Positions 31,911 through 54,234 of a stretch of DNA of 64,000 nt are shown here, one piece after another (position 1 is the first letter of the stretch; each line of letters starts with the position of its first letter). Under the pieces are notes generated by a model. That model had not been told where the DNA came from and ran no database searches. It worked only from the letters and a program-made list of their open reading frames with translations. A program made the translations under genes and the position numbers. Origin of the DNA: Halarcobacter sp. (lineage in GTDB: Bacteria; Campylobacterota; Campylobacteria; Campylobacterales; Arcobacteraceae); assembly GCF_963675975.1 (NCBI RefSeq), contig NZ_OY780939.1, forward strand, positions 2,418,001-2,482,000, given 5' to 3'.

Positions 31911-32450
31911 TTATTTTTCAAAATATTTATCTATGAAAATCTCTTCAAGATAATTAACTTTCAAATTTATTGTTGAAAACTCTTCTTTTTTTAATATTGA
32001 ATATATCATTCTAATAGTACCTTTATGGGAACAAATTAGTATATTCTTATCCTTTGGTAAAGTATTTAAAAAAGAATTTATTCTACTTTTAAATTCATCA
32101 AAACTCTCTTCACAAATATAGTTATACCAGGTATAAATATTATCTAGATACTTTTTATCATAAGAGTTTAATTGTTCTATTTGTTCAAAAGATTTTTTTT
32201 CGATCTCCTCTTTAAATTTTACTTCTCTTAAATTTTTATTTGTAGTGTAGGTTAAATTAAATAAATCAAGTGTTTGTGTACATCTTTTTAAATCCGAGGA
32301 ATAGATTAAATCATAATCTTCTTTGTTTAATATATTTAATTTTGATTGATCAATCAAAGAGATATCAATATCTATATCTGAGTGACCTATATATCTTTTT
32401 TGATACTCTTTTGGTAAGGGAGCATGTCTTAAAAGTGTAATTAAACCCAT
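31911..32450 (-). CDS. cobC: Histidine phosphatase, alpha-ribazole phosphatase CobC
   Basis: 179 residues. The phosphoglycerate-mutase-like motif LLRHAPLP gives the catalytic His, and SHKGTIRMI the second. At the end of a cobalamin operon this is the phosphatase acting on alpha-ribazole 5'-phosphate or cobalamin 5'-phosphate. The frame is open upstream to 32558 inside cobS, but the domain starts MGLITLLRHA, so I use the ATG at 32450, which overlaps cobS by 10 bases. Confidence 0.85.
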   Translation of the reverse strand: MGLITLLRHAPLPKEYQKRYIGHSDIDIDISLIDQSKLNILNKEDYDLIYSSDLKRCTQTLDLFNLTYTTNKNLREVKFKEEIEKKSFEQIEQLNSYDKKYLDNIYTWYNYICEESFDEFKSRINSFLNTLPKDKNILICSHKGTIRMIYSILKKEEFSTINLKVNYLEEIFIDKYFEK

Positions 32451-33187
32451 AAAAAGCAAACTCCAAATGCAATTAGAATTTCGATACTCTCTAATACAAA
32501 ACCTAAAACATCCCCATTTAGAAACCCTAAAGCTTTTTTCAAAAATACTGTAATACATAAAGCTAATAAAAAAGCTATTGGTATAAAAAGTAAAAAACTA
32601 AAATCAGCTAATAAAAATACTAAAAATGAAAAAACTATAATAGAAGTCAAAAAGCTTTTTGGTGTAAAACTATCTGCCATAAGTGTTACAAAAGATGATT
32701 TAAACTTTGAAAAATAAATAGTAAACTGAACACTCAACCTACTAATAATAAGAATTGCAAGAAGTTCAAGTAAATATCCATGATAAAGTAAGTAGGCAAA
32801 TCCTACTATTTTTAAAACTACAAAGATAAGTGAATATAAAACCCCTATTGCTCCAACTGTTGGTTCTTTTATAATCTTGTAGGCATCTTTGCCACTATGT
32901 CTTGCATAGATTGCATCTACAACATCAAGTATCGCTTCAGTGTGAATAAACCCATAAAGTACAAAATAAACACAAGTTGCAATAATAGAAGCTAATAAAG
33001 GAATTGAATCAAGAAGTGAGAAAAGAAGTATGGTGATAATCCCTAAAACTAAACCAACTAAAGGCAAGAAAAAGACAGTATAGTTTAAAACCTCTTTTTT
33101 TGATACATCATCATCTTTTTTAAAACTAACTGGTAAAACAGAAAAGTAACTAAATACAAATTTTAGTCCAAGGATTATATTACTCAT
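32441..33187 (-). CDS. cobS: Adenosylcobinamide-GDP ribazoletransferase (cobalamin synthase)
   Basis: 248 residues with about seven membrane helices. Typical CobS segments: an early FSYFSVLP, GFIHTEAILDVVDA and the metal-binding area KDAYKIIKEPTVGAIG, and a late FLNGDVLG. It joins alpha-ribazole phosphate to adenosylcobinamide-GDP in the membrane. Overlaps cobQ by 8 bases and cobC by 10, showing tight coupling. Confidence 0.93.
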   Translation of the reverse strand: MSNIILGLKFVFSYFSVLPVSFKKDDDVSKKEVLNYTVFFLPLVGLVLGIITILLFSLLDSIPLLASIIATCVYFVLYGFIHTEAILDVVDAIYARHSGKDAYKIIKEPTVGAIGVLYSLIFVVLKIVGFAYLLYHGYLLELLAILIISRLSVQFTIYFSKFKSSFVTLMADSFTPKSFLTSIIVFSFLVFLLADFSFLLFIPIAFLLALCITVFLKKALGFLNGDVLGFVLESIEILIAFGVCFLWV

Positions 33188-34574
33188 AAATACTCTTTTT
33201 AATAGTTTCTATATCAATTTTCTTTTTTAATTGTGAAACAAAACTCTCTATTGTTTCTTGTTTATACTTTTCAAAATCAAAGCTTTGATACTCACTATTT
33301 ATTGTTTTAAATAGTTTATCTCTTAAGTTATCATTATCAAATATAGCGTGGGCAAATGTTCCTTTGATATTCTCTTTTTCAAAGTATATTGGGTATTTTG
33401 AACTTGCTCCATGGTGTATCTCAAACCCTGAAACTTTACAATCAAAAATTTCATACTCTTTTTTCTCTAGAGTTTTCTCTTTTTCAAAAACTATTATCTC
33501 ATCAATAAAGCCAAAACCCTCTTCTATAGTTGCAGTTTCATTCTCTAAGGCATATTTATCATCAAGAGTGTTAAAAAGCATCTCATAGCCACCACAGATA
33601 GCAAAAATCTCTTTTTTAAACTCTTTAATACTTTTAAAAAGTCCAGTTTTCTTTAGCCATTGTAAATCTTTGATTACTAGTTTTGAACCAGGTAAAATTA
33701 TCATATCATATTTATCTAAAGGTATATTTGCTTCAATAAACTCTAAATTTATACAATCATCTGAAACTAAAGGTTCAAAATCATTGAAGTTACTCATATA
33801 TGGATATGAAACTACACCCACATTAATGATTGCTTTTTCTTTGTTTTGAATATAGTTTTTCAAGCTTTGTGAGTCTTCAAAACCAAAATTAAAAGGTGTA
33901 TATGGCAACACTCCTAAAACTGGTATTTTAAAATCCTCTTCTATTATCCTAACACCTTCATCAAAAAGTGTTAAATCCCCACGAAACTTGTTTACTATAA
34001 CACCTATTACATTCTCTCTTAACTTTTTAGGAAGTAGATTATAAACTCCATAAATAGAAGCAAAAACTCCACCTTTTTCTATATCTGCAATTAGTATGAT
34101 TTTTGTATTGTATTCATCGGCTATAAAGATATTTGAAAGGTCTTTATCCATTAGGTTTAGCTCAACTGGACTTCCAGCTCCTTCACAAACAACTACATCA
34201 TATTTTGAATCAAGATAATCAAAACATCTTTTAACAGCAGGTTTAAGTATGTCTAAATCTCGATAATACTCTCTAACATCTTTATTGGTTACTACTTTTC
34301 CCTCAACGATAAGTGAAGCAGCACTTCCCCTGCCAGATTTAAGTAGTACGGGATTTAAATGATATGAAGTTTCAACTTCTAGAATCTCTGCTTGAAAGTA
34401 TTGTGCAACTGCAATCTCACTTTTGTCATCACAAACAAAAGCATTGTTTGAAACATTTTGTGCTTTAAAAGGAGCAACACTTAAACCCAGATCTTGGATA
34501 ATCTTAGCTATTACAAAAGTTAGAGTTGATTTTCCAGCATCTGAGCTTGTACCAAATATTGAGATATTATTCAT
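33180..34574 (-). CDS. cobQ: Cobyric acid synthase CobQ/CbiP
   Basis: 464 residues. An N-terminal dethiobiotin-synthetase-like ATPase domain (FGTSSDAGKSTLT, FKAQNVSNNA, CEGAGSPVELN) and a C-terminal glutaminase domain with the Cys in IFAICGGYEML and a late His in GTFAHAIFD. It amidates four side chains of adenosyl-cobyrinic acid diamide to cobyric acid. It is somewhat shorter than many CobQ. Immediately follows cobU (TAG then ATG). Confidence 0.93.
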   Translation of the reverse strand: MNNISIFGTSSDAGKSTLTFVIAKIIQDLGLSVAPFKAQNVSNNAFVCDDKSEIAVAQYFQAEILEVETSYHLNPVLLKSGRGSAASLIVEGKVVTNKDVREYYRDLDILKPAVKRCFDYLDSKYDVVVCEGAGSPVELNLMDKDLSNIFIADEYNTKIILIADIEKGGVFASIYGVYNLLPKKLRENVIGVIVNKFRGDLTLFDEGVRIIEEDFKIPVLGVLPYTPFNFGFEDSQSLKNYIQNKEKAIINVGVVSYPYMSNFNDFEPLVSDDCINLEFIEANIPLDKYDMIILPGSKLVIKDLQWLKKTGLFKSIKEFKKEIFAICGGYEMLFNTLDDKYALENETATIEEGFGFIDEIIVFEKEKTLEKKEYEIFDCKVSGFEIHHGASSKYPIYFEKENIKGTFAHAIFDNDNLRDKLFKTINSEYQSFDFEKYKQETIESFVSQLKKKIDIETIKKSIYE

Positions 34575-35066
34575 CTATTTTAATCTACTTTCAAGTCCAA
34601 ATTTAACTTCATACACCTCATCACAGATTTTTGCAAGCTTTTGTCCTATGATTCCAGTTAAATCTACAAATCTTCTACTATCTTTGTCAAATGGAATTAC
34701 ACCAGAGGTTACTTCATTTAGTACAAAAACTATGTTGCAATCTATTTGCTCTAAAATTTCTAGTTGTTTTAGTAACTCTTGTTCTTCTTTTTCTATATTG
34801 TTAAATATCCACATTGAGATACAATCCACAAGATAAGTTTCTTTTTCTTTTATTACTTTTGTTAAGTCTTTTGGCTCTTCTAAAGTAGAAAAGTTGTCTT
34901 CCCTACTCTTTTTATGTTTGTCTACTCTTTTATGCATTTCTTTATCATCATAAGAGTTATCATAAGTTGCTATATAAAAAGGTTTATTTTTTGCTAAGCT
35001 TAGAGCTTTTACCTCAGCAAGGTTTGATTTACCGCTTTTTTGTCCACCAAAGTATAATACTTTCAA
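34575..35066 (-). CDS. cobU: Adenosylcobinamide kinase / guanylyltransferase CobU/CobP
   Basis: 163 residues. Walker A GGQKSGKS is near the N-terminus; KSRE (near the usual guanylylated His), LVDCISMWIFN (Walker B area) and FVLNEVTSGVIP are typical. It phosphorylates adenosylcobinamide and then transfers GMP. The start is TTG, with AGGA 6 bases upstream. Four bases separate it from cobT. Confidence 0.92.
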   Translation of the reverse strand: MKVLYFGGQKSGKSNLAEVKALSLAKNKPFYIATYDNSYDDKEMHKRVDKHKKSREDNFSTLEEPKDLTKVIKEKETYLVDCISMWIFNNIEKEEQELLKQLEILEQIDCNIVFVLNEVTSGVIPFDKDSRRFVDLTGIIGQKLAKICDEVYEVKFGLESRLK

Positions 35067-35069
35067 TAC

Positions 35070-36128
35070 TTATCCTAAAAAGCTTTCTATTTTTTCTGTT
35101 ATAGTTTTTTTATCTAATCCATTTAAAAAACCATAAACTAAAGCAGCTCCTGCTCCAACACCCTCTTTTGCTTCTCCATTATCATATAGCTTAAGTGCTG
35201 GATGAGAAGACAAAGCAAAATCAAAATCTGCATAATAAGCATTTAGTTTAAAATCAAGCATTTCAAGTAAGGCTTTTATATCACTATTTTCATCATCATT
35301 TACCCATTTAGTTGTACATAAAGCTAAATTAGAAGTTTCAAACTCACCTTCCATAGTTTTTAAAACAGCATTTACTATTAATAGAACACAAGCCATTTGT
35401 GTCCCACCTGCTAAAATTACTTTTAGTTTATTGTTTAAACCTAAAATAACTCCAGCATAAAAGATAAGCATATTATCACCAACCTTACTAAGTACAGAAA
35501 ATAGATCGTCACTACTAGATACATTTTCTAAAGCTTTTTGGATAGTTGTATCTCTAATACCATTTGGTACATCTTTAAAAGAACTACTAAACATCTCTTT
35601 ACACTTATACCCTAAAGCCAAAGCTGTAGCAGTTGCAGTTGAAGTTCCACTTGGTACAGATTCTCCTAAGATTAGATAATCATCTTTTAACTCATAAGCT
35701 TGTCCAAATACAAGCCCTTTTTGAAAAACATCCATTGCATCTATATTTGCACCCTCGTCTATTCTTGCTGAAGGTTCTATTTGCATATTGTGTATTTTGA
35801 AGTAGTCTAGTTTTGGTTTTACTTTTATACCTAAATCAAGAAGCTCTATATTTGTAAAGGGATTTAAAAGATGAACTGCTCTTGTTATAAGAGCTGGAGT
35901 TGGTACACCTTTTGGTGTTTTTGCAACATCTTCTAAACTTCTAACCTCTCCACTACATAAAAACTCACTATCTAGTGTTGGAGTTAAATATATTTGTCCA
36001 GGTATTCCTGCTTGTGTTATACCTTCTATATCTGCCGTACCTGTATTACTCATAGCCAAAATATATGTTGCTTTTTTACCTCTTAGGCTTTCTGCAAAAT
36101 CTATATTTCCAATTATACTTTTTATCAT
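35070..36128 (-). CDS. cobT: Nicotinate-nucleotide-dimethylbenzimidazole phosphoribosyltransferase
   Basis: 352 residues. CobT makes alpha-ribazole phosphate from nicotinate mononucleotide and 5,6-dimethylbenzimidazole. Visible segments: GESVPSGTSTATA, LAGGTQMACVL, and the C-terminal EGVGAGAALV containing the catalytic Glu. Located directly after bluB, which makes its base substrate. Confidence 0.93.
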   Translation of the reverse strand: MIKSIIGNIDFAESLRGKKATYILAMSNTGTADIEGITQAGIPGQIYLTPTLDSEFLCSGEVRSLEDVAKTPKGVPTPALITRAVHLLNPFTNIELLDLGIKVKPKLDYFKIHNMQIEPSARIDEGANIDAMDVFQKGLVFGQAYELKDDYLILGESVPSGTSTATATALALGYKCKEMFSSSFKDVPNGIRDTTIQKALENVSSSDDLFSVLSKVGDNMLIFYAGVILGLNNKLKVILAGGTQMACVLLIVNAVLKTMEGEFETSNLALCTTKWVNDDENSDIKALLEMLDFKLNAYYADFDFALSSHPALKLYDNGEAKEGVGAGAALVYGFLNGLDKKTITEKIESFLG

Positions 36129-36136
36129 CTTCTTTC

Positions 36137-36760
36137 CTATAAAGTTTTAATATCTTTTAAACTCTTTTTCTTTTCCCACTCTATTTGTAATAGCTCAGGC
36201 TCTTCTAAAAACTCATCCACATAGCCTATAGCTAAATATGCTACTAGTTTATACTCTTTTCCAATTCCAAGTATCTTCTTTACATTTTTAGGCTTTAATA
36301 TACTTATCCAACCAACTCCAATATTATAAGCTCTTGCCATAAGCCAAAGGTTTTGTATAGCACATACTACACTATACTCTCCCATTTTCTTTTGAGTTGT
36401 TTGACCAAGTACTTTTTTCTTTGGTTTTTCATATAAAACAGCTACATTGATATATGACTCTTTTATACCCTCTAATTTTAACCTTGGATATACTTCATTA
36501 TCTTTGAATATTTTCTTTGCTTTAGTATTCTCTTTTTCAAACTCTTTGTATATTGCATCTCTTTTATCTTTGCTTTTTACAATTACAAATTTCCAAGGTT
36601 GAGAAAATCCAACAGATGGAGCACTATTTGCTGCGCTTAAAATCTCATCTAAGATTTTATCATCTATTTTCTTTTTTATAAATCTATTACCTCTAACATC
36701 ACGTCTTAGAAGCATAATCTCTTTTAAAGTCTTTATATCACTTTTGTTAAATTGTTTCAT
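36137..36760 (-). CDS. bluB: 5,6-dimethylbenzimidazole synthase BluB
   Basis: 207 residues of the nitroreductase fold with the BluB hallmark RRDVRGNRF, the SAPSVGFSQPWKFV flavin segment and GWISILKP. BluB fragments reduced FMN with oxygen to make 5,6-dimethylbenzimidazole, the lower ligand of true cobalamin. Its presence means the cell should make cobalamin rather than a pseudo-cobalamin, when oxygen is available. It overlaps the kinase gene by 14 bases. Confidence 0.9.
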   Translation of the reverse strand: MKQFNKSDIKTLKEIMLLRRDVRGNRFIKKKIDDKILDEILSAANSAPSVGFSQPWKFVIVKSKDKRDAIYKEFEKENTKAKKIFKDNEVYPRLKLEGIKESYINVAVLYEKPKKKVLGQTTQKKMGEYSVVCAIQNLWLMARAYNIGVGWISILKPKNVKKILGIGKEYKLVAYLAIGYVDEFLEEPELLQIEWEKKKSLKDIKTL

Positions 36761-37592
36761 TTATTATCTCGAACTTTCTTAAAAACTCTGTACAATCTTT
36801 TTTTGTATTTTTATATACTCTTTGTAAAGAGTAATATAAACAAGCATATAAAAGATACTGTTTAAAGTTTTCTTTTTCTATTTTTATTTTTGAGTATCTA
36901 TCGTATGTATTTAATATAAATTGGTAAAAACTTTTATTGAATATATCTTTATCAAAACACCAACTTATAACCACAACAGCTATATCAAAGTTTATATTAC
37001 CAAAACATGACTGTGTAAAATCATATACCCCACTAAGCTTTTCATCTATAAACTTTACATTATCAGGAAATAAATCCCCATGAATTAAAGCATTAGGCTT
37101 TAGGTCTATATCTTTAACTATTTTATACTTTTGTTTTATCTCTTCTATATTTTTTAAAGAGTAAAGCATTTTTTCAAAGTTTTGTTTTGAGTAAACATCC
37201 TTTTTAGTAATTTCAATCTCTTTTATAGAGTGTAAACTTACTAAAAAAAGTGTTATCTGTTTTAGATGATTTGATGTAATTGTTTGGATAACATCCCCTT
37301 CTATATAAGAAAGAAGTGTTATTGGTCTATTATTGTAAAGGTTTATTTTCTTTGAAAGGACATTTGGGACATCTAAAGTTTTTATAGCTTTTAAAATCTT
37401 GATTTGATTTTCTATATCTTTTATAGATGAATCTTCATATAGTTTAAATACATATTTCTTTGTATCTGAAGTGCCAATATATGTTGTATCACTAATACCT
37501 TGAAAAGTTTCTTGTATTGAGTTAAAACATATATTGGTATCTTCTATTAAGCTATTTACCTCTTTTAAAGTAAGTTTGGTTAAAACACCCAA
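36747..37592 (-). CDS. Homoserine-kinase-II/APH-like kinase inside the cobalamin operon
   Basis: 281 residues of the aminoglycoside-phosphotransferase/choline-kinase fold: nucleotide Lys near YVFKLYE (residue 50), catalytic loop HGDLFPDN (171-178) and metal-binding DF (191-192). The opening MGVLTKLTLKEV and the block FPDNVKF...LSGVYDF resemble ThrB type II homoserine kinases. In a cobalamin operon that includes cobD but no pduX, I infer it may phosphorylate L-threonine (or serine/ethanolamine) for the nucleotide loop. A housekeeping homoserine kinase placed here by chance is the alternative. TTG start with an AAAGG site; overlaps bluB. Confidence 0.75.
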   Translation of the reverse strand: MGVLTKLTLKEVNSLIEDTNICFNSIQETFQGISDTTYIGTSDTKKYVFKLYEDSSIKDIENQIKILKAIKTLDVPNVLSKKINLYNNRPITLLSYIEGDVIQTITSNHLKQITLFLVSLHSIKEIEITKKDVYSKQNFEKMLYSLKNIEEIKQKYKIVKDIDLKPNALIHGDLFPDNVKFIDEKLSGVYDFTQSCFGNINFDIAVVVISWCFDKDIFNKSFYQFILNTYDRYSKIKIEKENFKQYLLYACLYYSLQRVYKNTKKDCTEFLRKFEIINETI

Positions 37593-37603: not shown

Positions 37604-38275
37604 TTATTTAGGTTCATGAAAATCTATAAAAAGAGTCATATATTTATCTACATTCTCTTTTTTAAAGTCAAGTATCTGCTCCCCTTGAAAGTTAAGGTTT
37701 TCAAAAGTATAAACTGAACCTTTCTCTTTTACCTTTTGTGTTTCCATACCAATCTTTGGTCTCATATAAACTGTTGTAAAAGGAACTTTACTTTTATGTA
37801 AAGGTCTTATAAGAAAACTACTATCCCCAACACATAAAGGTTTTTTTACCTTAGCAGATGCATGGGAAAATGATGTAACTCCAGGTATAACTTCACAAGC
37901 TTCATAAACTTCGTTTTTTTGTTCTTTTATTATATCAAGTAGATAATAAACTGTACTATATACAGCACTATCTCCTAAAGTTACAAAAGAAAGCTTATCG
38001 TATGTATTAAAAGAATCAAAGATTATATCAACTTGTCTTTGCCAATCCTCTTGTTTGAATCTCATTGGAGTATACATAGGAACAATATCTTTTTCAAAAC
38101 CATACTCATCCATAAGCTGTTTTACAATTTTATAAGTCATTGACCTTTTAAAACTATTATCAGAACTTTTAGTAGGGATACAAATAGCATCAGAATCTTT
38201 TAATGCCTTTAATGCTTTTAAAGTAATTAGTTCATAATCACCAGGGCCAAGTGAAACCATATATAATTTTGTCAA
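37604..38275 (-). CDS. cbiL: Precorrin-2/cobalt-factor-2 C20-methyltransferase CbiL
   Basis: 223 residues of the SAM-dependent tetrapyrrole methylase fold: YMVSLGPGDYELITLKAL, the FVTLGDSAVYST loop and EVIPGVTSFSHASA. The charged, Thr-rich C20-methyltransferase pattern and the position between cbiK and the kinase fit CbiL rather than CbiF/H, which are encoded elsewhere. TTG start with a strong AGGAGAGG site. Confidence 0.88.
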   Translation of the reverse strand: MTKLYMVSLGPGDYELITLKALKALKDSDAICIPTKSSDNSFKRSMTYKIVKQLMDEYGFEKDIVPMYTPMRFKQEDWQRQVDIIFDSFNTYDKLSFVTLGDSAVYSTVYYLLDIIKEQKNEVYEACEVIPGVTSFSHASAKVKKPLCVGDSSFLIRPLHKSKVPFTTVYMRPKIGMETQKVKEKGSVYTFENLNFQGEQILDFKKENVDKYMTLFIDFHEPK

Positions 38276-38284
38276 TACCCTCTC

Positions 38285-39127
38285 CTAATAAGTCATAGTC
38301 TTATGACTAATACCAAGCATTTTAAATGATTCTTTAATATTTTTGATAATAATCTCATTTGTTTTAGGAAGCTCTAAAAGATTGAAGTTCTCACTGTTGG
38401 TAAGGGATTCAACAATTGAAGACTCAAAACAATCTTTTAAATTCTCTTTTATCTCAAACATATCTTTTATAAAGTGATTTCCACTAACTAAAAGTAAAGG
38501 TACAACTTGAACTTTTTTATAACCTTTCTCTTTTATTTTTCTTTTAATAGCTTCATTTACAGAAAAATATGGAAAAGCACCCTCTAAAGAACATGAAAAG
38601 TTTCTTTCATCTAACATCTCTAAAAGTGAACTTGTATATGAAATAGAATCAATACCAACTGTATTTAACTTTGGAGTTCCATGGATAATATATAAGTTTG
38701 CAGTATCTTCTTTGCTAACTTGCTCATTTAACTCTTTTAAATATGCAGTTGTATCTTTTGTAGTTGTTAGAATTGGATTTGTAATACCTAAGTTAGCCAT
38801 AGAGAAGTGTTTAAATCCATCTACTATTTTTTTTAAAAACTCATGTTCATCTGTTGGATAGATATTTACAGATACTACAACCACATGTTTAAATCCTAAC
38901 ATATCAACATCAGCTAAAGTTTGAGGAAGGTTTTTATAAATCTCTTTTTTCTTTTTCTTTAAAAGCTTAATAACCATTCTTGAAGAAAAAGAGGTAAACA
39001 CCTCACAATCTGGGTATGCCTCTTTTACTTTCTCTTCTAAATCTAGATACTTTTGTTGCTCTATTACAGAACCAAAACAAGCAAGAACGATAGCTCTTTT
39101 TCTGTTATAGTGTCTAAATCTTTTCAT
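38285..39127 (-). CDS. cbiK: Sirohydrochlorin cobaltochelatase CbiK
   Basis: 280 residues. The chelatase fold has IVLACFGSV at the N-terminus, the active-site His in YIIHGTP, a Glu in SLEGAFPYFS and the second His in VSGNHFIKDMF. CbiK inserts cobalt before ring contraction, so the pathway here is the oxygen-independent cobalt-early one. No signal peptide, so cytoplasmic. Its ATG overlaps the stop of cbiM. Confidence 0.88.
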   Translation of the reverse strand: MKRFRHYNRKRAIVLACFGSVIEQQKYLDLEEKVKEAYPDCEVFTSFSSRMVIKLLKKKKKEIYKNLPQTLADVDMLGFKHVVVVSVNIYPTDEHEFLKKIVDGFKHFSMANLGITNPILTTTKDTTAYLKELNEQVSKEDTANLYIIHGTPKLNTVGIDSISYTSSLLEMLDERNFSCSLEGAFPYFSVNEAIKRKIKEKGYKKVQVVPLLLVSGNHFIKDMFEIKENLKDCFESSIVESLTNSENFNLLELPKTNEIIIKNIKESFKMLGISHKTMTY

Positions 39128-39807
39128 TATTTTGCACTGTTAAAAAGTCTTGGTTCTACAAAAGAACTTGATTTTAAACTATTTAATGTTTTAGCCCCTG
39201 CAAGTACTGCAATATCAATAACTGGTTCTAAAATAACAACACTCATATAAGCTGCCCCAAAACTAAATACTGCACTTATGTTTTCTGCACCAAAACCTTG
39301 TCCGTATAATGCCCAGAATGCAACCCAAGTTACGATTCCACCTTGATACATTAAAGATAGTTTTAATGCAGTTGCATATTTGATATCTTTGTATGGTGTA
39401 GCTTTTGGAATGATTTTAGCTGCTACATAACTCATAGCAAATAAAGGCATTAAAAGAGTAGTTACATTTATACCATATTGTGGTAAATCAAACTGTGCAA
39501 AAAATAAACCTTGGATTAATAAACCAAGTGCCAAACCAAAGGCTGCAGCCCCTGCACCAAATATTAAAAATAGTGTTGAACCTAAGATTAAATGAACCTC
39601 AGAAACACCTATTGGATGGTGAGGTAAAACCTCAAAAAACATAAATACTAAGATAGTACTAATTATTGTTTTTACTGCAAATGGTAAAACACCTGCGTCT
39701 TTGATATTTTCATAAGCCATTTTAGCGGCAACCGAGAATGAAACTGCGGCAGTTCCATAACTTAAAACCATTTTTGCGCCGTGCACAACTCCTGCTTCTA
39801 TATGCAT
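39127..39807 (-). CDS. cbiM: Cobalt ECF transporter substrate-binding membrane protein CbiM
   Basis: 226 residues with about six membrane helices. The N-terminus MHIEAGVV places His at position 2, which with the terminal amine and later His residues (63, 64 and 72 in LPHHPIGVSEVH) forms the metal site of CbiM/NikM. No cbiN, cbiQ or cbiO gene is next to it. Given its operon it should bring in Co2+; nickel cannot be excluded. First gene of the minus cobalamin operon, with an AAAGGA site. Confidence 0.85.
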   Translation of the reverse strand: MHIEAGVVHGAKMVLSYGTAAVSFSVAAKMAYENIKDAGVLPFAVKTIISTILVFMFFEVLPHHPIGVSEVHLILGSTLFLIFGAGAAAFGLALGLLIQGLFFAQFDLPQYGINVTTLLMPLFAMSYVAAKIIPKATPYKDIKYATALKLSLMYQGGIVTWVAFWALYGQGFGAENISAVFSFGAAYMSVVILEPVIDIAVLAGAKTLNSLKSSSFVEPRLFNSAK

Positions 39808-41363: not shown

Positions 41364-42063
41364 AATAGAACAACCACCAATAAATATAGGTGCAGATATC
41401 TCAAATAGATCTTTTGAGATGATTAATAATGAGTTAAAAGAGTATGAAAAGATAAATGAGTTTGATGAAGAACAAAAAGAGGTAATAAGTAGACTTATAC
41501 ATACAACTACTTGTTTTGATGAGGTATTAAACAATATTTACTTTTCAGACAATGCTATTAAAAAAGTGCAATCATTACTTATAAACAAAGCAAAAATCAT
41601 AGTTGATGTAAATATGATAAAAGTTGGACTTAGTGATTTTTATCTAAAACAATACGACAATGAAGTGGTTTGTTATATAAACGAACCTTTTACTTATGAA
41701 ATGGCAGAAAAAAATAAAACAACAAGAAGCTATGCAGCTGTAGTTGAAGCAATCAAAAGACACAAAGATGAGCCTTTGGTTTTAGCGTGTGGAAATGCCC
41801 CTACTTTTATATATGCAGCAATCAACACTTTACTTGAACAAAAAGTTGATTTAAACAATGTAGCACTTTTACTTTTCCCTGTAGGTTTTGTAAATGTGGT
41901 TGAATCAAAAGCTTATGGAAGAAAGTTTTGTGATACTTTTGATGTTGCAGGGATTATCATGGAGGGAAGATTTGGAAGCTCTACTATGACTGTTGCAACA
42001 CTTCATGCTATTTATAAACTAATCAAAGATTATGATAAAGATGAGAAATACAATGGAAAATAA
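41353..42063 (+). CDS. cbiC: Cobalt-precorrin-8 methylmutase CbiC
   Basis: 236 residues. Contains RLIHTTTCFD with the catalytic His, the segment IIVDVNMIKVGL, and a late LLLFPVGFVNVVESK and GRFGSSTMTVATLHA. It moves a methyl from C11 to C12 to give cobyrinic acid. The first part is longer than in some CbiC. TTG start with AAAGGA upstream, overlapping cbiA. Confidence 0.9.
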   Translation: MEFKIEQPPINIGADISNRSFEMINNELKEYEKINEFDEEQKEVISRLIHTTTCFDEVLNNIYFSDNAIKKVQSLLINKAKIIVDVNMIKVGLSDFYLKQYDNEVVCYINEPFTYEMAEKNKTTRSYAAVVEAIKRHKDEPLVLACGNAPTFIYAAINTLLEQKVDLNNVALLLFPVGFVNVVESKAYGRKFCDTFDVAGIIMEGRFGSSTMTVATLHAIYKLIKDYDKDEKYNGK

Positions 42064-42520
42064 AAAAGAAGTTCTTTACAACACAATGGGAAGTGAAGTT
42101 GCAGAGGGTTTTACTTGCAAACCAAAAAACTTTGATGCAAACAAACCAATAATGCACTTAAAAACTCAACTTTTTGTATGTACAGATGAAAGATGTGGTA
42201 AAGCACACAAAGATAAAGATATAGCTGCAACTTTAAGAGAGGTTATAAAAGAAGTAAGTCTATCAAAAGGTGAAGATAGAATAAAAGTTGTAAGAACTGG
42301 ATGTTTTGGAGCTTGTAGATTTAGAAGTGTTGCAAATATCTATGAAAATACAAAAGCAAATGGAAACTCTCAAAACAACGGAGTTTGGCTTAAAAATGTA
42401 CATAGATATGACAAAGAAAAATGGAAAAAACTATTTATAGCTTTAAAAGATAATATAAGTATTGACTCTTTAGAAGAGTTTGAACAAGTACCAATGAGTG
42501 ACCCAAGTTTTTATAAATAA
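42053..42520 (+). CDS. [2Fe-2S] thioredoxin-like ferredoxin protein of the cobalamin operon
   Basis: 155 residues. Cysteines 43, 48, 84 and 88 give C-x4-C-x35-C-x3-C, the pattern of thioredoxin-fold [2Fe-2S] proteins such as NuoE. It is embedded between cbiC and cbiD with overlaps on both sides (11 bases and 1 base), so it is made with the corrin enzymes. A redox step is implied; the operons lack a recognised precorrin-6A reductase and a cobalt reductase/adenosyltransferase. The role is inferred. Starts at 42032 and 42041 are possible; I chose 42053, which has a GAG about 8 bases upstream. Confidence 0.75.
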   Translation: MENKKEVLYNTMGSEVAEGFTCKPKNFDANKPIMHLKTQLFVCTDERCGKAHKDKDIAATLREVIKEVSLSKGEDRIKVVRTGCFGACRFRSVANIYENTKANGNSQNNGVWLKNVHRYDKEKWKKLFIALKDNISIDSLEEFEQVPMSDPSFYK

Positions 42521-47303: not shown

Positions 47304-48053
47304 ATGCAAATAGCAATTTTATCTGATATACATTCAAATGTTTATGCTCTACAAGAAGTAATAAAAGATATTAGAAATAGAAATATTGAAGTGGTTTTAA
47401 ACCTTGGAGATATGTTTTATGGACCAATTGAACCAAGAGCAACTTATGAACTAATAAGAGACAATAAGTTTATAAATATTTGTGGGAATCAAGATAGAGA
47501 GATACTTGAAGCCTCACTAGCACAACTTCAAGAAAACCCTACTTTAAAGTATGTTTATGAAGATTTAGGTGAAGAGGTTTTATATTGGATACAAGAGTTG
47601 CAATTTGAAAAGATAATTGGTGGAACTTATTATATGGTTCATGGAACTTATTTTGATGATACTCAGTACCTTCTTGAAGATGTTTCAGAAGGTACTGTAA
47701 AATTAAGAAGTGATGAAGAGATTATAAAACTAACTGATAATATTGAAACACCATTTATTTTTTGTGCCCACTCTCATTTACCAAGAATACATAAACTAAA
47801 TTCAGGTCAAATAGTTATAAATCCAGGTTCAGTAGGACTTCAAGCCTATAAAGAAGAACTTCCAACAAAACACAAAATGGAAAATAACACTCCTGATGCA
47901 GCCTATACAATATTAACAATTGAAGATAACCAATATAATATTGAGCAAGTAAGAGTTGCCTATGACTTTGAAAAAGCAGCTTTGAAAGCAGAAGAAAATG
48001 GCAGAGAAGATTGGGCGTATGCACTTAGAACTGGTAAGGTATTAGAAAACTAA
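47304..48053 (+). CDS. Metallophosphoesterase within the cobalamin operon
   Basis: 249 residues of the calcineurin-like fold: LSDIHSNVYAL, NLGDMFYGP, CGNQDRE, MVHGTY and CAHSHLPR plus INPGSVG supply the dimetal site, as in YfcE-type phosphodiesterases. It lies 10 bases after cbiH and overlaps cobD by one base, so it is co-expressed with corrin genes. Its substrate is unknown: a corrinoid phosphate, ribazole phosphate or an unrelated phosphodiester is possible, though CobC already covers the first two. The frame opens at 47277, but AAAGGC points to the ATG at 47304. Confidence 0.82.
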   Translation: MQIAILSDIHSNVYALQEVIKDIRNRNIEVVLNLGDMFYGPIEPRATYELIRDNKFINICGNQDREILEASLAQLQENPTLKYVYEDLGEEVLYWIQELQFEKIIGGTYYMVHGTYFDDTQYLLEDVSEGTVKLRSDEEIIKLTDNIETPFIFCAHSHLPRIHKLNSGQIVINPGSVGLQAYKEELPTKHKMENNTPDAAYTILTIEDNQYNIEQVRVAYDFEKAALKAEENGREDWAYALRTGKVLEN

Positions 48054-49063
48054 TGAAAGAGTTTCAGCACGGTGGAGATATAGAAAATTTTGCTAAAAAA
48101 GCAAACTGTAAAGTAAAAGATGTAATCGATTTATCCTCAAATATAAACTTTTTAAAACCAAAACTTGATATAGATTTTAATACTTTAGATATCTCTTCAT
48201 ACCCAAATTATGACAAGCTTTATAAGGCTATTTCAAATCATTACAACATTTTGAAAGGAGAAATTGAACTATACAATGGAGGTAGTTCTGCTATCTTTAA
48301 ACTCTTTGAAAATTTGAAGCTAAAGCATTGCACCATATATTCCCCTGCGTACCTAGAATACAAGAAAGCAGCACAAAATTTTGATTATAAAATTGATTTA
48401 ATAAATAGATTTACTGATATAAAAAAAGAGGTAAAAAAAGGCTCATTTGTAATATTTGTAAACCCTTCAACACCTGATGCAAAATGTTATAACATAAAAA
48501 AACTACTAAAATCATGGATAGAAAAAGAGTGCACAATTCTTATTGATGAAAGCTTTTTAGAGTTTACTGATTTAGAGTCTGCTACAAAGTATATAAAAGA
48601 GTATGACAAGCTTTATATACTAAAATCAATGACAAAGTTCTATTCTAGTGCTGGTATTAGAGTTGGTACAATTGTTTCATCAAAAAAAAATATCAAAAAA
48701 CTAAAGCAAAAAGAGCCAATGTGGAAGATATCTACCTTTGATATGAACTATCTAATAGAGGTTTTAAAACACAAAGAGTTTTATAAAAAAGCAAAGATAA
48801 AAAACAAAGAAAATAAAGAGCTTTTAGCCTCTATACTTAAAGAGTATTCTTTTATAAAAAAGGTATATAAAGCTGAAGCAAATTATGTACTAGTTGAACT
48901 AAAAAACATAGATGCAAAACAACTTCAAGAAAAACTAATTCCTTACAAAATTATGCTCAGAGATTGTTCAAATTTTGACTTTTTAGACTCTTCGTATGTT
49001 AGAATTGCAGTTAAAAACAAAGCCTCAATCAAAGCTTTAAAAACTGCTTTTGATAGGATATAA
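48053..49063 (+). CDS. cobD: Threonine-phosphate decarboxylase-like PLP enzyme CobD
   Basis: 336 residues, aminotransferase class I/II fold. The opening EFQHGGDIENFAKKANCKVKDVIDLSSNIN is typical of CobD; NGGSSAIFKL, ILIDESFLEF, the PLP Lys in LKSMTKFYSSAG, and a C-terminal Arg in SYVRIAVKN are present. It decarboxylates L-threonine-O-3-phosphate to aminopropanol phosphate. Placed directly before cbiB, which uses that product. A histidinol-phosphate aminotransferase is the less likely alternative. Confidence 0.87.
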   Translation: MKEFQHGGDIENFAKKANCKVKDVIDLSSNINFLKPKLDIDFNTLDISSYPNYDKLYKAISNHYNILKGEIELYNGGSSAIFKLFENLKLKHCTIYSPAYLEYKKAAQNFDYKIDLINRFTDIKKEVKKGSFVIFVNPSTPDAKCYNIKKLLKSWIEKECTILIDESFLEFTDLESATKYIKEYDKLYILKSMTKFYSSAGIRVGTIVSSKKNIKKLKQKEPMWKISTFDMNYLIEVLKHKEFYKKAKIKNKENKELLASILKEYSFIKKVYKAEANYVLVELKNIDAKQLQEKLIPYKIMLRDCSNFDFLDSSYVRIAVKNKASIKALKTAFDRI

Positions 49064-49064
49064 A

Positions 49065-49952
49065 TTGTATTTTTCTATAGCTTTGATTGCATATATAATT
49101 GACTTCTTTTTTGCAGAATTTGAAAAAATAAAGTTTTTAAAACACCCTATAATTTTCATGGGAAATTACATAAAATGGTTTGAAAAGAAATTTTATTTGG
49201 ATAATATTTATAGAGGTTTTATACTTACACTAAGTTTGATTTGTATAGTATTTACTATAACTTACATTTTAACATTTGTAGATAATATATTTTTCCAAGC
49301 TTTCCTTTGTTCTTTTGCAATCTCATCAAAAATGCTTTTTGAAAGTGTACAAAATGTAATAGTATCTGATAATCCAAAATATGCAATTTCTATGCTTGTT
49401 AGTAGGGACACAAATGAGATGAGTGAAAGTGATATAAACAAAGCAGCAATAGAAACTTATGCAGAAAATTTAAGTGATGGAGTGATTGCTCCACTTTTTT
49501 ATATGCTTTGTTTTGGACTTGTTGGAGCATACATTTATAAAGCAATAAATACTTTAGATTCTATGGTTGGATATAGAAATGAAAGGTATGAAAAATTTGG
49601 TAAATTTTCAGCCAAACTTGATGATGTAGCAAACTACATTCCAGCTAGAATAACAGCTCTTTTAATAGCCCTACTTTTCTTCTCAAAAAAAGCTTTTTTA
49701 CAGTTTCAAAAATATGGTAAAAAACATGAAAGTTTAAATGCAGGACTTCCAATCTCAGCTATGGCTTTAGCTATAAATATAAAACTTGGAGGTCCTACTT
49801 CATATTTTGGGAAAATAAAAGAAAAACCCTACTTTGGAGATGGTAAAGAAAAAATAGAAAAAGAGGATGTAAAACAAGCTTTGAGTATAAAACCAAAGCT
49901 TGATATGTTTATTATAGTTGTTTTAGTTATTCTTAGTATTTCTTTTTATTAG
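49065..49952 (+). CDS. cbiB: Adenosylcobinamide-phosphate synthase CbiB
   Basis: 295 residues, membrane protein. Segments typical of CbiB: FMGNYIKWFEKKF near the N-terminus, MLVSRDTNEMSESDINKAAIETYAENLSDGVIAPLFY, AINTLDSMVGYRNERYEKFG and GLPISAMALAINIKLGGPT. It attaches aminopropanol phosphate to cobyric acid. The frame opens at a TTG at 49050 inside cobD, but AGGA lies 6 bases before the TTG at 49065, two bases after the cobD stop begins a new unit, so I use the latter. The 3' end overlaps the convergent btuC by 30 bases. Confidence 0.9.
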   Translation: MYFSIALIAYIIDFFFAEFEKIKFLKHPIIFMGNYIKWFEKKFYLDNIYRGFILTLSLICIVFTITYILTFVDNIFFQAFLCSFAISSKMLFESVQNVIVSDNPKYAISMLVSRDTNEMSESDINKAAIETYAENLSDGVIAPLFYMLCFGLVGAYIYKAINTLDSMVGYRNERYEKFGKFSAKLDDVANYIPARITALLIALLFFSKKAFLQFQKYGKKHESLNAGLPISAMALAINIKLGGPTSYFGKIKEKPYFGDGKEKIEKEDVKQALSIKPKLDMFIIVVLVILSISFY

Positions 49953-50885
49953 AAGATATACAAAGAATGGCGCTCCAATAAATGAAGTTACAACGCCAAT
50001 AGGCATACTTGAAGCTGTATTTAGGTTTCTAGCAATTAAATCTGAGATTACTAAAAATACTCCCCCGTAGAAAAATACAGGAAATATAAGCTTATGTGCA
50101 CTCTTTTTATAGATAAGTCTTATGGTGTGTGGAATAATAAGTCCTATAAAGCCAATAGGTCCAACAAAACTGATACTAACCCCAACAGCAATAGATACTA
50201 GTATTAACAGCGTTAGATTAACTCTATTTACATTTATACCCTTTAAAAAAGCCATATCATTAGATACTAAAAGAAGTTTAATTTCAGATTTAAATCTATA
50301 TACAAAATATAAAAACAAAATTGCAACAATAAAAACAATAATAGGTGTATTAAACCCCACAATATCTAGACTACCTAAAGTAAACCGTACAATCGTATAA
50401 TTCTCTTGTAAGGTACTTAAAAAGAATACTAACATAAGAGCTGAAGAATAAAAGAAAGATAAAGCAATCCCTACAAGCAAAATAGAGTTTGTAGAGGCTA
50501 ACAGTGAGTTTTTATTTATAATTCTTGAAATCAAATATAAAACCATAATAGTAATAAAAGAACCAACTATTCCTGAGATATATAAAGCAAAGGTAGGTAG
50601 AAATACAATTGATAAAGCTGTAAAAAGTGTAGTTCCACTCGCTATTCCTAAAGTATAAGGAGTAATCAAAATATTTTTAAAAATTGTTTGAAAGATAAGT
50701 CCGCTAAGACTTAAAATAGCTCCTACAAAAAAGGCTAAAACTATTCTTGGAACCCTTAAGTCCCAAAATATCATATGTGAAGTTGTATTTGAATCAAAGA
50801 TTTCATTAAAAGAGATACTACTTTCACCAAAAAATGGAGATAAAACTATCAAAAATACAGATATTATATATGCAATATTTTTCAT
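49923..50885 (-). CDS. btuC: Corrinoid ABC transporter permease BtuC (FecCD family)
   Basis: 320 residues with about nine to ten helices. FecCD-family segments: LRVPRIVLAFFVGAILSLSG, ITPYTLGIASGTTLF, SFVGPIGFIGLIIPHTIR and MPIGVVTSFIGAPFFVYLL at the C-terminus. Context with btuB, btuF and the cobalamin operons points to corrinoids rather than iron siderophores. It overlaps the ATPase gene by 4 bases. Confidence 0.85.
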   Translation of the reverse strand: MKNIAYIISVFLIVLSPFFGESSISFNEIFDSNTTSHMIFWDLRVPRIVLAFFVGAILSLSGLIFQTIFKNILITPYTLGIASGTTLFTALSIVFLPTFALYISGIVGSFITIMVLYLISRIINKNSLLASTNSILLVGIALSFFYSSALMLVFFLSTLQENYTIVRFTLGSLDIVGFNTPIIVFIVAILFLYFVYRFKSEIKLLLVSNDMAFLKGINVNRVNLTLLILVSIAVGVSISFVGPIGFIGLIIPHTIRLIYKKSAHKLIFPVFFYGGVFLVISDLIARNLNTASSMPIGVVTSFIGAPFFVYLLIKRNTKNN

Positions 50886-51580
50886 AAGTTTACCACCAAA
50901 TGATTATTTACAATTTTTAAAGAGCTATTATAAAACTTATCCAAATTTTCTTTTGAAAAAAACTCTTCAGAAGTTCCGAAAAATTTTATCTTACCCTCAT
51001 TTAAATAAAGTATTTTATACTTTAAATGAAAAGCTAAATCAAGATTATGGGTAATAATTATCTTTTGTTGTAGATATGGCATTTTAAAAAGTGTGTAAAC
51101 CTCTTTTACCCTAGAAATATCCATATTTGCAGTTAACTCATCAAATATAGTTATTTTTGCATTATGAATCATACTTGAAGCTAATAATAAAAGCTTTTGT
51201 TCTCCACTACTTAGCTCTTTGCAAGGTCTATTTTTAATCTCTTCTATTCCAATCAAAGATATTACTTCATCAATTCTTTTTTTCTGAATTTTATCTATGA
51301 AACATAATTCTAAAAATTCATATACAGTAATATATTCATCAAAAACCTCTAGAGTAGAAGGTATATAGTTAATATATTCAACTCTTTTTTTGTCTTCAAT
51401 TTTTGAAATATTTTCATCAAAGATTGTAACGCTGTTATTTTTTATTAGATATGATAAAACTTTCGATAAAGTAGACTTCCCTGCACCATTTTCACCAAGA
51501 ATTATTAAGTCCTCCTTTTCATTTAGTGTAAAACTTACATTTTCTAAAATATGGTTTGAATAGTTACTTATGCTTAACAT
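50882..51580 (-). CDS. btuD: Corrinoid ABC transporter ATPase BtuD
   Basis: 232 residues. Walker A LGENGAGKSTLSK, signature ELSSGEQKLL, Walker B AKITIFDELTANMD and switch His in IITHNLDLA. It powers the BtuCDF importer. Somewhat short for the FecE family. Overlaps btuF by 17 bases. Confidence 0.85.
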   Translation of the reverse strand: MLSISNYSNHILENVSFTLNEKEDLIILGENGAGKSTLSKVLSYLIKNNSVTIFDENISKIEDKKRVEYINYIPSTLEVFDEYITVYEFLELCFIDKIQKKRIDEVISLIGIEEIKNRPCKELSSGEQKLLLLASSMIHNAKITIFDELTANMDISRVKEVYTLFKMPYLQQKIIITHNLDLAFHLKYKILYLNEGKIKFFGTSEEFFSKENLDKFYNSSLKIVNNHLVVNL

Positions 51581-52388
51581 TTTCTAATATCTTTTTAAAA
51601 TCTTGAATAAAATAGTTTACTCTATTGCTAGGAATCCCAGCATAATCTTTATCTATTACATATATATTGTCACTTTTACTTGCATTTATAGGAAGTTTTT
51701 TCCATGAGCTTTTTAATTGCTCTTTTGTTAGGCTTTGAGAATGCATAAAAGGTGCCAATAAAACTACTATATCAGGATTCATATTTATTATTTTTTCAAT
51801 ATTTACTACAGGCTGGCTTTTTGATTTAGATTGATAGGCATTTTTATTTCCAGAGTATTTTATAATATCATTAAAATAAAGATTGTTTCCAGAAATATAA
51901 ACAGATCTATTTAAATCTAATCTTGGGCTTATTACAACCATTATCTTTTTATCTTTTATGATATTTTTTAAACTATCAAGATTTGTATTAATCTCTTCTA
52001 TAATAGCCTCTGCCCTACTTTGTTTATTTAATATATTACCAATCTTTAATATTGTATTTTGTATTGATTCTAAATTATCTGTTTTAAAACTATAATAATT
52101 TAGATTCAAACTCTCTAAATTTTTTAATAACTTTTCATCATAATCTTGAGTAAAAACCAAAGTTGGTTTTGATAAAAGTATTTTTTCCAAAGAGATAGTT
52201 GAGTATCCACCAACTTTTAATATATTTTTTGATTCTTCTGGATAATCACTATGTAAAGTATTTGCGACAATATCTTTACCACTTCCTAAAGCAAATACTA
52301 TTTCGTTTAATGAAGGGGAGAGAGCAACTATTCTCTCTCCTGCTATTAAATTAGAAATTAAACCTAATACAAATAAAAACTTTTTCAT
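51564..52388 (-). CDS. btuF: Periplasmic corrinoid-binding protein BtuF
   Basis: 274 residues with a signal peptide (GLISNLIAGE). Class III binding-protein features: RIVALSPSLNEIVFALGSGKDIV, YPEESKNILKVGGYSTISLEKILLSKPTLV, and a late IPSNRVNYFIQDF. It delivers substrate to BtuCD. Starts two bases after the btuB stop. Confidence 0.85.
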   Translation of the reverse strand: MKKFLFVLGLISNLIAGERIVALSPSLNEIVFALGSGKDIVANTLHSDYPEESKNILKVGGYSTISLEKILLSKPTLVFTQDYDEKLLKNLESLNLNYYSFKTDNLESIQNTILKIGNILNKQSRAEAIIEEINTNLDSLKNIIKDKKIMVVISPRLDLNRSVYISGNNLYFNDIIKYSGNKNAYQSKSKSQPVVNIEKIINMNPDIVVLLAPFMHSQSLTKEQLKSSWKKLPINASKSDNIYVIDKDYAGIPSNRVNYFIQDFKKILENVKHK

Positions 52389-52389
52389 A

Positions 52390-54234
52390 CTAGAAACTAT
52401 ACTTTAATCCTGCTGTAACACTTCTTGGACTAGTTGCATATCCATCTATCTCTTGATAATATTTATCAAACATATTCTCCAGTTTAACGAAACCTGTTAA
52501 ATCTTTAGTAATTGTATAGTTTGCAACAGCATTCCAAACTGTGTATCTTCCAGTTTGTGTTCCTTTTTTATCATCTTGGCTATATCTATCACCAATATAT
52601 TCACCATTGATATTTAAATGTAAATTTTTAAATCCATAATAATCTAATCCAAATTTGAAGTCATCTTTTGGTCTTCTTCTTAAGTATTCATTGTCTTGAT
52701 TTTTTGCACTTAATCTTGTGTAACTAAGTGTTAATAAGAAATCATCTAAGAAATCTCTTTTATATGAGATTTCAAGACCTTTGATTTTAGTTGTACCCTC
52801 TTGGTTTGCATATACTGCATCATTGTTAAAATAGTTTAAAGGAGTTGGGTCAAACCAATCTATAAGATCATCAACTTTTTGATTAAAATATGTAACTTTT
52901 AAGTTTTCATACTCAAATCCAATATCATAAGATTTGCTTGATTCTGGCTCAATATCAAAATTTTCTTTCCCCCAAGGGTTTACATTTTTGATTAATAAAG
53001 GAACACTATACGAAGTTCCTACATTTGCAAATAAAGAAAACTTAGGAGTAAAGTTATATTTTGCCCCTACTTTTCCTGTTAATTTGTTATCAAAGTTATC
53101 AAAAGTGTCATATCTTAAAGACTCTGTTAAAATTAAATCTCCAAAATAATTAGTATTTGTTGCATATAAATATTTAGTTTGATTTGAAGCAGAATTAGAT
53201 GTACCATCTGCTCTTGAAAAATCTAATTCATCTTTACTAATACCCATTCCTAACAATAAAAAATCTCTATCAGAATATGTGATATTATCAGATAGTTCCA
53301 CATTTGTAGTTTCATTGTCTGTTAATTTAACACCCCAAGTTGTACCTATTTGGTCCCTTTTTGTTTTTGTTTTTTCTAAACTAAGAGAGATATCATGATT
53401 TTTATATTTTTTATCAAAACCTAAATTATAAATTTTAGTTCTTGAATCATTTTTCATAAGATTATCGTTTGGTCCACTGCTATCATAATCTTTTAAAGAA
53501 TCAATATCAACTACTGAAAAGCTAAATCTTGACGAATTATTGATATAGTAATTACCCTTTAAACTAATAGTAGTATTTTTATACTCATCATCCTCTAGTG
53601 CATCTAAATACTGGTTTCTTAAAGCTTGAGATGAAAAGCTATCTGATTCAATTCTTTGTGCATCAAGTTTCAAATCAAATTTTTCATTTCTATATGATAA
53701 TTGAGAAGCAAGTTTTTGAGTTGAAAAACTTCCTAGTTCTGTTGAAACAAAACCATGAAAACCATCTTTTGCTTCTTTTGTAATAATGTTTACTACACCA
53801 GCAGCTGCATCAGCTCCCCAAACTCCACTTTGTGCACCTTTGATTACTTCAATTCTTTCGATATCTGTTATCATTAGACTTGAAAGGTCAGTTCCATCTA
53901 AACTTGAATGATCTTTAAATTTTACTCCATCTATTAAAATAAGTGTTCTATTATTGCTAGAACCTCTTAAACTCAAAGATGTTGTACTTCCCAATCCACC
54001 ATTTCTTGTAAATGTAATTCCTGGTAATGAATTTAAAGCATCAACAACAGAAACAAAGTGTCTCTCTTCTATCTCTTCTTTTGTTAAAACATCTACATTT
54101 GAAGTAATATCTTTGATAGATTGCTCAGACTTTGTAGCACTTACGATTGTGATTGTTGATAATTCTTGTGAAAAAAGATTTGTTGCTAATAATAGTCCAG
54201 CAACTAGACTTGTAGTTAATTTTTTGTTTTCCAT
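52390..54234 (-). CDS. btuB: TonB-dependent outer-membrane receptor BtuB
   Basis: 614 residues: signal peptide (LLLATNLFS), a TonB-box-like STITIVSATK, a plug domain (GITFTRNGGLGSTTSLSLRGSSNNRTLILIDGVKF, WGADAAAGVVNIIT) and a 22-strand-type barrel ending in AGLKYSF. The size matches BtuB of Escherichia coli, and the gene is followed directly by btuF-D-C beside the corrin operons. It should import cobalamin and related corrinoids. No cobalamin riboswitch was recognised upstream; instead a small ORF precedes it. Confidence 0.87.
   Translation of the reverse strand: MENKKLTTSLVAGLLLATNLFSQELSTITIVSATKSEQSIKDITSNVDVLTKEEIEERHFVSVVDALNSLPGITFTRNGGLGSTTSLSLRGSSNNRTLILIDGVKFKDHSSLDGTDLSSLMITDIERIEVIKGAQSGVWGADAAAGVVNIITKEAKDGFHGFVSTELGSFSTQKLASQLSYRNEKFDLKLDAQRIESDSFSSQALRNQYLDALEDDEYKNTTISLKGNYYINNSSRFSFSVVDIDSLKDYDSSGPNDNLMKNDSRTKIYNLGFDKKYKNHDISLSLEKTKTKRDQIGTTWGVKLTDNETTNVELSDNITYSDRDFLLLGMGISKDELDFSRADGTSNSASNQTKYLYATNTNYFGDLILTESLRYDTFDNFDNKLTGKVGAKYNFTPKFSLFANVGTSYSVPLLIKNVNPWGKENFDIEPESSKSYDIGFEYENLKVTYFNQKVDDLIDWFDPTPLNYFNNDAVYANQEGTTKIKGLEISYKRDFLDDFLLTLSYTRLSAKNQDNEYLRRRPKDDFKFGLDYYGFKNLHLNINGEYIGDRYSQDDKKGTQTGRYTVWNAVANYTITKDLTGFVKLENMFDKYYQEIDGYATSPRSVTAGLKYSF

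Follow-up and report, generated by a model that had tools for sequence, protein, structure and literature searches.

Few proven cobamide producers carry an annotation for the kinase with which the aminopropanol branch of cobamide synthesis begins; indeed, a survey of 11,000 genomes omitted pduX and cobD from its rules, most verified cobamide producers being without those annotations (PMC6461909). The locus described here raises the question of whether a kinase of another family takes this step in Halarcobacter sp. The window, by which we mean the whole 64,000 nt stretch of DNA that was analysed, carries a ten-gene corrinoid operon in the order cbiM-cbiK-cbiL-kinase-bluB-cobT-cobU-cbiP-cobS-cobC:

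39127-39807, minus strand: cbiM, cobalt uptake (PF01891, 4e-14)
38285-39127, minus strand: cbiK, sirohydrochlorin cobaltochelatase (PF06180, 5e-29)
37604-38275, minus strand: cbiL, cobalt-factor II C20-methyltransferase, immediately upstream of the kinase gene (TIGR01467, 2e-34)
36747-37592, minus strand: candidate L-threonine kinase of the APH fold, 281 aa (PF01636)
36137-36760, minus strand: bluB, 5,6-dimethylbenzimidazole synthase (TIGR02476, 213 bits, cut-off 150)
35070-36128, minus strand: cobT-type phosphoribosyltransferase, TIGR00303 family (254 bits, cut-off 240)
34575-35066, minus strand: cobU, adenosylcobinamide kinase/guanylyltransferase (PF02283, 1e-40)
33180-34574, minus strand: cbiP, cobyric acid synthase (NF001989, 462 bits, cut-off 273)
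32441-33187, minus strand: cobS (PF02654, 6e-31)
31911-32558, minus strand: cobC-like alpha-ribazole phosphatase (TIGR03162, 2e-21, below cut-off)

The gap between cbiL and the start of the kinase gene is 11 nt, and the overlap with bluB described from a first reading of the sequence is real, at 14 nt. A divergent plus-strand cluster holds cbiA, cbiC, cbiD, cbiET, cbiF, cbiG, cbiH, a metallophosphoesterase gene and the two genes of the cobamide linker branch, both of which the genome encodes:

48053-49063, plus strand: cobD, threonine-phosphate decarboxylase, 336 aa (TIGR01140, 211 bits, below the cut-off of 290.55)
49050-49952, plus strand: cbiB, adenosylcobinamide-phosphate synthase (TIGR00380, 220 bits, cut-off 166)

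The CobD of the window has no kinase extension, and no cobalamin riboswitch reached the Rfam gathering score within the window. Since CobU, CobT, CobS and CobC are all present, the threonine kinase is the single unfilled kinase step.

The candidate gene is an intact open reading frame with a TTG start; relatives whose N terminus M/L-G-V-x-T falls at the same position support this start. Its product belongs to the APH family (PF01636, E 1.2e-18, 68.3 bits against a gathering score of 23.2), its structure is predicted with a pLDDT of 92.5, and it carries an HGDLFPDN loop and a DF motif, with the catalytic HxDxxxxN present; H171, D173, N178 and D191 are kept across the family of B12-linked kinases. 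The preliminary description of an APH-fold kinase with these motifs inside a ten-gene corrinoid operon is thus borne out by domain match and gene order alike. The likeness to homoserine kinase II (ThrB2) that it reported also holds, in that ThrB2 is the best profile, PDB and fold match. The ThrB2 model NF003558 aligns over the full length of the protein, although at 127.9 bits against a cut-off of 271, and TIGR00938 gives 88.8 bits against 255.9; by these scores the kinase falls outside ThrB2, whereas a positive control, ThrB2 from an alphaproteobacterial locus, passes the cut-off at 278.8 bits. The nearest solved fold is ThrB2 structure 2ppq (Z 29.8 over 272 residues), with the next best match at Z 24.7. 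L-homoserine and L-threonine are close analogues, and we count this kinship in favour of a threonine kinase.

We propose that the gene very likely encodes an APH-fold ATP:L-threonine O3-phosphotransferase (EC 2.7.1.177) that feeds CobD and CbiB, with L-threonine as the substrate that we infer from sequence and genome comparisons. The kinase would phosphorylate L-threonine with ATP, CobD would decarboxylate the L-threonine phosphate to (R)-1-amino-2-propanol O-2-phosphate, and CbiB would join the latter to adenosylcobyric acid. More broadly, it is likely that an unnamed ThrB2-related APH family serves as the cobamide L-threonine kinase across much of Campylobacterota, and that it became joined to CobD in a lineage of spirochaetes.

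The known kinase for this step, PduX, is absent. The genome searched is complete, in one 3.27-Mb contig, and encodes two GHMP kinases, ThrB (TIGR00191, 279 bits, cut-off 168) and IspE. There is no third GHMP protein in it and therefore no PduX, which extends to the whole genome what had been remarked for this stretch of DNA; the separate GHMP thrB also means that the kinase is not the only candidate homoserine kinase of this genome, a circumstance that would have spoken against the proposal. PduX is likewise absent from 15 sister species, which have the same ThrB/IspE pair, one of them with an extra GHMP protein of 456 aa. Seventy-five further cbiB-bearing genomes of the order have that pair and at most one extra, longer protein, as judged by length only.

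If the kinase serves the linker branch, it should travel with cobD and cbiB. Among 399 genomes of the order Campylobacterales, the kinase was found in 51, cbiB in 82 and both in 47 (Fisher p 7e-34); at the genus level, cbiB occurs in 21 of 25 carrier genera and 10 of 62 others (p 4e-9), statistics that overstate independence because the genomes counted are related. Four of the carriers (G019, G172, G273 and G290) have weak or off-clade profile matches and are not counted as family, leaving 45 of 47 with cbiB. A set of named carriers, overlapping in part with the 399, gave a cbiB match in 18 of 19, one of them weak and truncated. Within eight open reading frames of 54 kinase loci we found cobD 38 times, cbiP 36, cbiB 35 and cobT 32, and cobD is the direct neighbour of the kinase gene in 14. 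The other extreme is represented by eight loci with no corrinoid genes nearby, most of them in genomes that have cbiB. The survey of co-occurrence with cobD and cbiB suggested in the preliminary description therefore gives a strong association, together with linkage to both genes. In eight sister genomes with few or no corrin-ring genes in the late cluster, the kinase still accompanies cobT-cobU-cbiP-cobS-cobC and cobD-cbiB, companions that assign it to the part of the pathway concerned with the linker and with loop assembly. Two of these eight have no bluB beside the kinase, so that there is no tie between the kinase and the lower ligand, a finding that argues against a role in 5,6-dimethylbenzimidazole (DMB) synthesis.

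A natural fusion ties the kinase more closely to CobD. In a metagenome-assembled genome of an uncultured member of the Spirochaetia (L123, contig CAJXGR010000167.1), positions 168-2072 form one uninterrupted 634-aa open reading frame, with an N-terminal kinase at approximately residues 1-297 (APH domain 27-225) and a C-terminal CobD at 300-630 (TIGR01140, 219 bits). Identity to the window kinase is 31% for the kinase half, and identity to Campylobacterota CobD is 45-48% for the CobD half; the GC content of the reading frame agrees with the rest of the contig, and the same genome has cbiB. No further fusion was found, this being the one kinase-CobD reading frame among 393 Spirochaetota genomes. 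Of all the observations, fusion to the enzyme that consumes threonine phosphate points most strongly to what the kinase would produce. Together with the filled homoserine kinase slot, the absence of PduX, the co-occurrence and the linkage, all of them independent lines, it gives good support to the earlier suggestion that the kinase is a non-orthologous replacement of PduX.

The closest alternative is that the enzyme phosphorylates free (R)-1-amino-2-propanol (or ethanolamine) for CbiB, bypassing CobD. APH-fold choline and ethanolamine kinases are structural relatives (Z approximately 20-22), the microcompartment aminopropanol kinase 6ef6 provides an APH-fold precedent (Z 20.5), and a position beside cbiB would fit. 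We nevertheless consider this unlikely, since ThrB2 is far closer in structure and sequence, and since CobD is retained next to the kinase and has even been joined to it in one protein, which would be pointless were CobD bypassed.

Slightly less likely again is an L-serine kinase for norcobamide synthesis, or a kinase with dual serine/threonine specificity. Serine phosphate is already formed in serine synthesis, and would be supplied without such an enzyme. Sulfurospirillum multivorans does make norcobamide by way of a CobD-like enzyme (PMC4585668), but a kinase of this sort is not among the genes listed for its norcobamide cluster (PMC7755780), and genomes with the 392-aa S. multivorans-type CobD are without the kinase. 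Moreover, the CobD of the window is nearer to Salmonella CobD (1lc5, 8e-24) than to the CobD-like protein 6oux (5e-10).

The relationship to ThrB2 itself was considered residue by residue. ThrB2 and the kinase have in common the APH fold, the HGDxFxDN and DF motifs, the N-terminal M-x-V-x-T segment, the catalytic His, Asp and Asn, and the metal-binding Asp. They differ at positions that are conserved in ThrB2: among 26 ThrB2-like sequences (numbering of L142), Asn37 occurs in 26, Asn39 in 24 and Arg276 in 26, and all three are replaced in the B12-linked kinases. ThrB2 GVENSNY corresponds to G-x-x-D-x-x-Y, DFYFAC to DF-x-x-[SA]-C, the position of Thr52 to Lys50 (58 of 58), and the invariant C-terminal Arg276 to Tyr or Phe. 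The B12-linked kinases also group together in a tree, separate from ThrB2-like proteins, save for G019, G172 and the fusion protein; G019 and G172 are weak outliers that cluster with gammaproteobacterial ThrB2-like proteins, and the fusion protein falls near the midpoint root with weak support. Genomic linkage to cobD and cbiB further sets the B12-linked kinase apart. A genuine ThrB2 homoserine kinase whose operon position is incidental would explain the best profile, PDB and fold matches, but is very improbable given scores below half the ThrB2 cut-offs, the replaced invariant residues, the GHMP ThrB already in the genome, and the tie to cbiB and fusion to CobD.

The proposed threonine kinase is absent from 35 of the 82 cbiB-bearing genomes, in which we found neither PduX nor a substitute. 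Five species of the same genus (L039, L041 and L045-L047, with L081-L085) have the same otherwise complete operon, from which the kinase gene alone is missing, cleanly, between cbiL and bluB; they too have no PduX. Their CobD is approximately 80% identical to that of the window, with conserved positions unchanged, so the threonine phosphate step must be met otherwise there. A shift in CobD specificity was rejected as the cause of kinase absence: no position conserved in the CobD of kinase-bearing genomes is altered in that of kinase-lacking ones, in a comparison that left out the 392-aa S. multivorans-type set. Where CobD is of that 392-aa type, we would expect the kinase to be absent, because serine phosphate, the precursor of the norcobamide made by that lineage, does not depend on a kinase of this sort. 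Among the recurring neighbours of cobD in kinase-lacking genomes, read by eye, we saw no replacement kinase, but rather MarC-like, SDR and transglutaminase-like proteins. A second APH protein of the Halarcobacter sp. genome (G000, 1735350-1736024), which is LicA-like and scores 49 bits against the kinase family profile, could conceivably be a partial substitute; similar LicA-like proteins also occur in kinase-lacking genomes.

PduX has the same proposed reaction and pathway position as the kinase described here, but its GHMP fold is unrelated to the APH fold. Methanosarcina mazei MM2060 resembles the Spirochaetia fusion in combining kinase and CobD in a single polypeptide; in MM2060 the kinase is a domain of another kind at the C terminus, whereas the APH kinase is N-terminal in the fusion and usually encoded by a separate gene. 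To our knowledge, the APH fold is new for the L-threonine kinase step, and nowhere in the open-access literature that we searched, subscription journals being outside its scope, did we find this family described as a threonine kinase. On comparative evidence, the kinase would add a new family of enzymes to a step that is itself known. Non-orthologous replacement of PduX is itself a known event, exemplified by BluE, Methanosarcina CobD and, as a proposal, CbiU (PMC6249242, PMC6461909, PMC4285132, PMC7242693). BluE, described for Rhodobacterales, is a non-orthologous L-threonine kinase (PMC6249242), as the present kinase is proposed to be. CbiU of Dehalobacter (Dehre_1608, TIGR02535), which resembles homoserine kinase and is encoded in a corrinoid operon, has been put forward as a replacement of PduX (PMC4285132), but is of the phosphoglycerate-mutase type and hence of a different family. 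As a replacement in Halarcobacter sp. it was rejected, with a weak partial match only in the genome. If our proposal is correct, a further unrelated enzyme for the threonine kinase step fills the gap in many Campylobacterota, homoserine kinase labels on such genes can be dropped, and makers and remodellers of B12 can be better predicted. The fusion makes the threonine kinase claim directly testable with one protein.

Several further features of the plus-strand cluster were noted. The metallophosphoesterase gene (PF12850; 47277-48053) lies between cbiH and cobD and overlaps cbiH; it is retained in all five kinase-lacking sister species and in only some kinase-bearing ones. We did not notice a cbiJ in the cluster. 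A 162-aa protein encoded between cbiC and cbiD (42032-42520) has a Cys pattern resembling 2Fe-2S ferredoxins and no Pfam match, and is conserved in related clusters. Lastly, btuC, btuD, btuF and a gene for a BtuB-like receptor adjoin cbiB (49923-54234), and corrinoid uptake genes border the biosynthesis cluster in many relatives.
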